Made by a program: the position numbers and the translations under genes
Origin: a virus
Virus record (IMG/VR): IMGVR_UViG_3300032268_001296
Coordinates: 1-64,000 of that record
DNA: 64,000 nucleotides
Strand: one strand, 5' to 3'
In this document: in pieces, positions 9,502 through 9,786 of the stretch
Numbering within the stretch: the first letter of the stretch is position 1
How the letters are laid out: every line of letters starts with the position of its first letter
The notes under the pieces: generated by a model
Database searches by the model: none
What the model was told of the DNA's origin: nothing
The model's input: the letters and a program-made list of their open reading frames with translations, nothing else

Positions 9502-9786
9502 TAGCCATGGTCGGACTCGAACCGACAAGCCCGAAGGCGGCAGATTTTCTTACCACTATAGTTTTCACTACCTTTACAGTTTGTGGTCTGGACTATACCT
9601 TGATCATAGTATTTCTACTTTAGATCCTTGCCGTCTAGTCTCTACACCTTCCTAATTTCTTAGGCTTGGCTCGGTATTAGCATTTTAAAGCCTTCACCGA
9701 ATTTGACAAGTTCTACTCCCACCGTTTCCGATGAGGCACTCAAATTATCTATAAGTCTGCTGTGTTTACCATTTCACCACATGGCC
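9502..9786 (-). tRNA. tRNA-Leu(UAA) interrupted by a group I intron
   Basis: Exons give acceptor GGCCATG/CATGGCT, D-stem GTG/CAC, anticodon stem GCAGA/TCTGC with loop CTTAAAA (anticodon UAA), a class II variable arm and T-arm GTCGGTTCGAGTCCGAC. The intron splits the anticodon loop after U34, the position used in cyanobacterial tRNA-Leu. A promoter lies just upstream. Confidence 0.92.
9549..9752 (-). ncRNA. Group I self-splicing intron in tRNA-Leu(UAA)
   Basis: 204 bases. The 5' exon ends in U and the intron ends in G, as group I requires. P1 forms ACUU with an internal GAGU guide, keeping the U-G wobble at the splice site. Core strings are recognisable: GAGCCAAGCC, GTGTAGAGACTAGACGGC (R element) and AAGGTATAGTCC (S element), with three GAAA-capped hairpins. 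No ORF inside. Confidence 0.9.

Follow-up and report, generated by a model that had tools for sequence, protein, structure and literature searches.

Group I introns splice by an established chemistry, a two-step reaction initiated by guanosine. The tRNA-Leu(UAA) introns of cyanobacteria occupy the same tRNA and the same site (CTT/...G/AAAATC) as the phage intron described here, share its general core and also leave no room for an open reading frame (ORF). They differ from it in forming a separate clade with at most 63.6% core identity to the phage intron, and most of them end in GAGAATG, while the phage intron ends in GTGGTAAG. The Azoarcus IC3 ribozyme, which interrupts a different tRNA, tRNA-Ile(CAU), has core strings (AAGGTGTAGAGACTAGACGG and ATAGTCCAG) that presumably resemble those of the phage intron, together with GAAA loops in L2 and L9. 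A tRNA-Leu(UAA) intron was also reportedly found in a Pseudomonas isolate by Vepritskiy in 2002.

The introns known from phages, including those of T4 td/nrd, Twort, the Bastillevirinae and crAss-like phages, are self-splicing and often come with homing endonucleases, but unlike the present intron they have been reported from protein-coding genes. The review by Hausner et al. 2014 (PMC3984707) places all phage introns in protein genes despite the many tRNA genes of phages, and PMC4853749 describes a group I intron in the tRNA-Leu(UAA) of Thiomargarita/Beggiatoa. The main text of PMC7162821 does not contain the word intron. Our searches of the PMC literature, beyond which most subscription papers and preprints lie, turned up no description of a phage tRNA gene that is split by a group I intron. 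Here we describe such an intron, presumably a self-splicing member of a phage-wide, partly mobile lineage.

Identification of the interrupted tRNA-Leu(UAA) gene

The window, which is the whole stretch of 64,000 nucleotides that was analysed, is part of a 112-kb IMG/VR virus record (IMGVR_UViG_3300032268_001296). With introns allowed, ARAGORN called a tRNA-Leu(UAA) gene with an intron at 34-35 and the boundaries gactt/intron/aaaat (Table 1). The joined exons of 82 nt gave the cloverleaf of tRNA-Leu(UAA), in agreement with the earlier note on this DNA, in which the tRNA was regarded as whole only once the intron is spliced out. The Rfam Intron_gpI search that had been proposed as a check matched positions 9762-9567 of the minus strand over the full model (1-253). 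The match reached 56.9 bits, the gathering score being 50, and its E-value was 8.7e-12 for the 64-kb window and 7.5e-14 when a 551-base stretch was searched. No second Intron_gpI match was present in the whole 112,197-bp record. As evident from the six-frame translation, the intron contained no ORF, all six frames being broken.

The ARAGORN intron call and the Rfam score above the cut-off bear out the proposal of a group I intron in a phage tRNA-Leu(UAA), and we confirm that the window holds a real group I intron between U34 and A35 of this gene. The length of 204 bases and the position after U34 given by the earlier note were the same in ARAGORN. Its coordinates, 9502-9786, were right at the end but one base off at the start (9501), and the strand, which is minus, had been omitted. 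In its default mode without introns, ARAGORN reported 18 RNA genes in the window, and the interrupted tRNA-Leu(UAA) was not among them. Phage tRNA introns are easily overlooked, since a tRNA finder passes over them unless introns are allowed, and counts of phage tRNAs can be underestimates.

Table 1. Coordinates of the features of the interrupted tRNA-Leu(UAA) gene and of an endonuclease gene in the tRNA cluster, in window positions.
Feature	Position	Strand	Basis
tRNA-Leu(UAA) pre-tRNA gene with intron	9501-9786	minus	ARAGORN with introns allowed; 82-nt mature tRNA
5' exon, acceptor 5' strand to U34	9753-9786	minus	ARAGORN
Group I intron, 204 nt, terminal G at 9549	9549-9752	minus	ARAGORN, Rfam and six-frame translation
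UUU upstream of the guide, pairs with 3' exon AAA (P10)	9742-9744	minus	Alignment and pair counts
Internal guide sequence GAG, pairs with C32-U33-U34 (P1, U.G at the splice site)	9739-9741	minus	Alignment and pair counts
P2 hairpin, GAAA tetraloop	9714-9738	minus	10 of 10 pairs with compensatory changes
P3 5' strand, partner 9627-9632	9705-9710	minus	6 of 6 pairs with compensatory changes
P4-P5 (P and Q core elements)	9671-9700	minus	Structure alignment
P6-P6a	9646-9670	minus	Structure alignment
P7, 9636-9640 with 9591-9595 (R and S elements)	9591-9640	minus	100% paired
P8, enclosed by P7 together with the P3 3' strand	9602-9626	minus	Structure alignment
P9 region, L9 GAAA hairpin at 9558-9571	9552-9587	minus	Structure alignment
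3' exon, A35 to discriminator A plus one base; CCA unencoded	9501-9548	minus	ARAGORN
Free-standing HNH endonuclease gene in the tRNA cluster	13790-14392	plus	Pfam HNH_2, 29.9 bits (cut-off 21)

Structure and covariation of the intron

The structure alignment comprised 31 diverse phage introns, the window intron included, which were chosen to be shorter than 240 nt and to have less than 88% mutual identity. The unguided consensus fold contained 52 pairs, 38 of them with a compensatory change. When P1, P10 and P7 were added, the named structure had 96.9% of 1946 cells paired, whereas slid control structures paired just 33-43% of cells. Compensatory changes on both sides were found for 40 of the 63 pairs, and the covariation score of 0.527 compared with a shuffled mean of 0.160 (0 of 500 shuffles were as high). 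The P3-P8 core with the P7 pseudoknot is backed by this covariation.

In particular, 98.9% of cells were paired in P1, while P10 was weaker at 88.2%, and all 31 aligned introns had U.G at the 5' splice site. GAAA loops capped L2 in 29 and L9 in 30 of the 31. The P1, P, R and S elements recognised by the earlier note were all present. Beyond these, the window intron has the Q string, forms the U.G pair of P1 where the 5' splice site lies and ends in a terminal G. This terminal G was shared by the window intron and 238/238 other Leu introns, a count in which the boundary pattern itself requires G. As pattern scans supplied the introns, their fixed 3' end and core strings were partly selected for; the most variable helices, P2, P3, P6a, P8 and P9, lie largely outside the scan patterns. 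The window intron may be IC3-like in its subgroup.

Predicted splicing

The phage gene would encode a functional tRNA-Leu(UAA), with a small group I ribozyme as part of its transcript. In the predicted reaction, the guide GAG would pair with C32-U33-U34, with U34 in a wobble pair, and guanosine would attack so as to cut after U34. The freed U34 would then attack behind the terminal G, with the UUU of the intron holding the AAA of the 3' exon. Joining of U34 to A35 would restore the anticodon loop, and keeping the intron would cost the phage little. The bases read by the guide are common to other U34 tRNAs, which fits the occurrence of related introns in tRNAs for Thr, Lys, Ser and Ile. Under this model the phage tRNA-Leu(UAA) should be self-splicing, and some phages would depend on RNA catalysis for a tRNA.

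The Rfam score lies just 7 bits above the cut-off, as might be seen in a decaying remnant that no longer splices and leaves the phage without a working tRNA-Leu(UAA). We regard such decay as very unlikely, as the core helices are all intact, the window intron fits the covarying consensus, the exons make up a complete tRNA-Leu whose anticodon stem and acceptor are intact, and an intron copy in another phage is 89% identical. It is highly probable, in our assessment, that the locus is a functional tRNA-Leu(UAA) with a ribozyme intron, belonging to a lineage that is common to many phages and several bacterial phyla and is partly mobile by means of HNH endonucleases.

Related introns in other phages

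Three pattern scans of IMG/VR returned at least 272 stretches, of which at least 179 had a tRNA-Leu(UAA) intron bounded by CTT/...G/AAAATC; at least 146 of these introns were distinct. The first pattern was biased to Leu 3' exons and the second covered the core only. The third, which was one N short for window-type introns, gave no match to the first-scan loci and found a second clade. Applied to genome contigs, the third pattern matched 13 stretches, nine with an ARAGORN-called tRNA intron and one (L128) an apparent chance match. Among the matches listed for the first scan, 51 loci with the 3'-end string had no called tRNA intron, and some of these matches are due to chance.

Among the matches listed for the core-only scan, introns also followed U34 in genes whose exons we read as Thr(UGU), Lys(UUU), Ser(UGA) and Ile(UAU) tRNAs, and followed U33 in genes read as Ile/Met(CAU) tRNAs, the non-Leu names and sites being assigned by eye from the exons. 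Some core-only matches had no called tRNA around them, and a few of these matches probably lie in protein genes.

Named phages also carried the intron. A similarity search of phage records revealed the same interrupted tRNA-Leu(UAA) in LR756501 and LR756503, two records of 735 kb. The tRNA-Leu(UAA) of the Agrobacterium phage isolate Atu_ph07 was interrupted at the same site, in a stretch with no annotated tRNA, and the same site was interrupted in LR756511, whose tRNA-Leu intron encodes an HNH protein, and, by a 700-nt intron, in the tRNA-Leu(UAA) of a 595-kb phage genome. Three of the named relatives (L002, L003 and L005) were scored with Rfam Intron_gpI, and none was at its cut-off. In the Microcoleus phage OR578706, an annotated tRNA-Arg of 286 bases contains a 213-nt intron. 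Group I introns thus occur frequently in phage tRNA-Leu(UAA) genes and are also found in further phage tRNAs, in contrast to the picture given by the 2014 review.

Several further loci were observed in the course of this comparison. In Prevotella phage Lak-B3 (546 kb; L605, 826-1569), the tRNA-Leu(UAA) seemingly contains two group I introns: the D loop holds one (GGT/...G/AGACACG) and the anticodon loop the other, with boundaries placed by eye. A tRNA-Ile(UAU) with a 210-nt intron was found in LR745208 (485 kb; L606, 1345-1631), and a tRNA with a 228-nt intron lies upstream of the terminase gene in the crAss-like phage cr115_1 (L607, 1353-1653). One viral stretch (L089) contained three ARAGORN-called interrupted tRNAs within 5 kb, with introns of 210, 194 and 180 nt.

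HNH reading frames and empty sites

Introns of at least 550 nt made up 52 of the 179 viral Leu introns among the matches listed and 0 of 42 cyanobacterial Leu introns. The 57 long introns listed, which came from viral stretches, named phages and MAGs or genomes, contained 39 distinct ORFs of at least 100 aa, 36 in sense and three in antisense orientation; ten introns had no ORF of that length. Pfam matches at E<=0.01 were obtained for HNH_3 in 35 and for HNH in 27 of the 39 ORFs, and three ORFs that were scored singly came near the curated Pfam cut-offs.

Scans for intronless junctions, made with the junction of one phage group and with that of the window, gave at least 240 stretches. A syntenic pair was accepted when its alignment reached at least 100 nt past the tRNA in each flank and ran through the junction CTT/AAAATC with no gap. 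At least 80 pairs of intron-plus and intronless loci were obtained in this way, from 15 of the 179 intron loci and 18 of the 240 intronless loci listed. The alignments of L193 with L524 and of L115 with L566 revealed homologous flanks from which the intron alone was missing, exactly. The tRNA exons differ between L069 and L497, so the whole tRNA gene was seemingly exchanged in that pair. Empty sites were seen for the T4-like cyanophage group only; among the 120 contigs with the exon junction of the window (matches listed), no intronless allele of its locus was found.

Uninterrupted tRNA-Leu(UAA) genes were present in the cultured cyanophages S-TIM5, S-SCSM1 and S-CAM4, and also in S-SRM01 and S-SKS1. 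The calls in the last two (L609, 2212-2284, and L610, 2535-2611) are 73-77 nt long and lack the usual long variable arm.

In part of the lineage, an intron-encoded HNH endonuclease probably homes the intron into intronless tRNA genes. For the window intron, which is free of an ORF, any movement would occur in trans or through recombination of the tRNA region. Homing, like expression and the direction of transfer, is something we infer. As HNH endonucleases and empty sites both occur in phage relatives, transfer and homing are testable in cultured phages. These observations touch the old question of how the tRNA-Leu(UAA) intron crossed lineages without an endonuclease.

Relationship to cyanobacterial introns

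The earlier note had placed the intron at the insertion site of the cyanobacterial tRNA-Leu intron, and this stands: all 42 cyanobacterial tRNA-Leu(UAA) introns that were fetched lie between U34 and A35. The same site is, however, not specific to cyanobacteria, as introns of Bacteroidota and Acidobacteriota genomes occupy it too, and so do introns on proteobacterial plasmids. The core of the window intron was 89.1% identical to that of the phage contig L114, 70.4% to that of a Bradyrhizobium plasmid and 63.6% to the best of the 42 cyanobacterial Leu introns.

We compared the introns in two maximum likelihood trees, both restricted to introns of at most 335 nt. In tree 1 (173 introns, 202 columns), all 46 cyanobacterial rows fell on one side of a branch with support 100/93. 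In tree 2 (177 rows, 199 columns), which includes genomic introns from Bacteroidota and Acidobacteriota, the 42 cyanobacterial Leu rows formed one clade (100/100), and three cyanobacterial Asn/Arg rows lay outside it. The window intron grouped with L114 and L175 (99/97) among 28 phage rows and two Burkholderiaceae plasmid rows. Seven introns with long branches or uncertain boundaries (L318, L007, L149, L151, L141, L222 and L194) were dropped between the trees. About 200 columns are few for such trees, and the bootstrap values had not settled.

That the phage captured an interrupted tRNA-Leu gene from a cyanobacterium, as the earlier note had considered, appears very unlikely from these results. 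The identical insertion site in 42/42 cyanobacterial introns would suit such a capture, one phage group of the lineage occurs in T4-like cyanophages, and the AU test gave p values of 0.342 (tree 1) and 0.156 (tree 2) for the window intron and cyanobacteria as one clade. On the other hand, the core identity of 63.6% falls short of the 89.1% to a phage and the 70.4% to a proteobacterial plasmid, the cyanobacterial Leu introns formed one clade from which the window intron and also the cyanophage introns were absent, and joining the window intron to them cost 18.7 (tree 1) and 40.0 (tree 2) in log-likelihood. The phylogeny with cyanobacterial introns that the earlier note had suggested is therefore divided in its outcome: both trees leave the window intron outside the cyanobacterial Leu clade, but the AU tests do not reject a common clade, and capture from a cyanobacterial-type host is accordingly unsupported.

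Bacterial relatives and direction of transfer

An RNA model built from the 31 phage introns (R1) was used to search samples of bacterial genomes. At E<=0.001, R1 matched 26 of 296 Bacteroidota, eight of 149 Acidobacteriota and five of 199 Bacillota genomes; the general Rfam Intron_gpI model matched 62 of the 194 genomes searched from the cyanobacterial phylum at E<=1e-4. Where the tRNA around an R1 match was read, it was Leu(UAA), Arg(UCU)-like or Ile/Met(CAU)-like, the non-Leu names being given by eye or by ARAGORN. Some R1 matches were on megabase contigs, including one of 3,551,823 bases (G353:C1), and others could lie on prophage or phage contigs in MAGs. The lineage is therefore common to phages and bacterial genomes.

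The Leu introns on plasmids of Mycetohabitans, Vallotia and Bradyrhizobium were similar to the window intron in their site, in a core identity of 64-70% and in their place on the phage side of the trees. They differ in residing on bacterial replicons, and the two Burkholderiaceae introns differ in their length of 262-268 nt.

One reading of these relatives is that the phage lineage acquired the intron from a Bacteroidota, Acidobacteriota or Proteobacteria host rather than from other phages. R1 matches in three phyla, several in tRNA-Leu(UAA) and some on megabase contigs, are consistent with a host source, as is the presence of the Burkholderiaceae plasmid introns inside the 30-row group of the window intron (support 82/96). 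The nearest rows, however, are all phage contigs (window, L114 and L175, 99/97), the bacterial Leu introns that were fetched fell mostly in other groups, and the tree is unrooted and gives no transfer direction. Overall, we consider acquisition from such a host rather unlikely, though less so than the cyanobacterial capture.

A broader scheme, which we put forward as speculative and rather improbable, would make phages the chief present-day reservoir of anticodon-loop group I introns and their main vehicle. The HNH-bearing phage introns would home into the conserved anticodon arm of tRNA genes with C32-U33-U34 and so spread among phages, across Leu, Thr, Lys, Ser and Ile tRNAs and into bacteria, and the tRNA-Leu intron of cyanobacteria and plastids would be an immobilised offshoot and not the source.

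Phage context of the window

The phage setting assumed by the earlier note was evident from the tailed-phage genes in the window, which encode RIIA, a minor tail protein, tail fibre J, a DNA polymerase and ribonucleotide reductase (RNR). Among 50,697 phage records, the best matches of the DNA polymerase were about 30% identical to it, and several of these matches are annotated as PolIII alpha subunits. The RIIA protein had no relatives among the viral contigs searched.

UUA was the most used Leu codon, with 30.8% of the 945 Leu codons in 25 long ORFs, and base composition alone leads to an expected share of 31.5%. As this use equals the compositional expectation, there is no sign of an extra demand for tRNA-Leu(UAA).

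The window also carries a large tRNA cluster and a tmRNA. The phage tmRNA, near the tRNA cluster at 7863-8241 on the minus strand, scored 124.6 bits and has the tag GNNKIVSFRKPNYSSKTVAFAA. A tRNA-like gene at 13377-13478 on the minus strand (Rfam 40.9 bits) has about 26 extra nt in its anticodon arm; ARAGORN reads it as a tRNA-Leu(CAG) with a 26-nt intron, which is too short for a group I intron. The free-standing HNH gene in the cluster (Table 1) might possibly act in trans as a homing endonuclease, and a second free-standing HNH endonuclease gene was observed at 15710-16273 on the minus strand.
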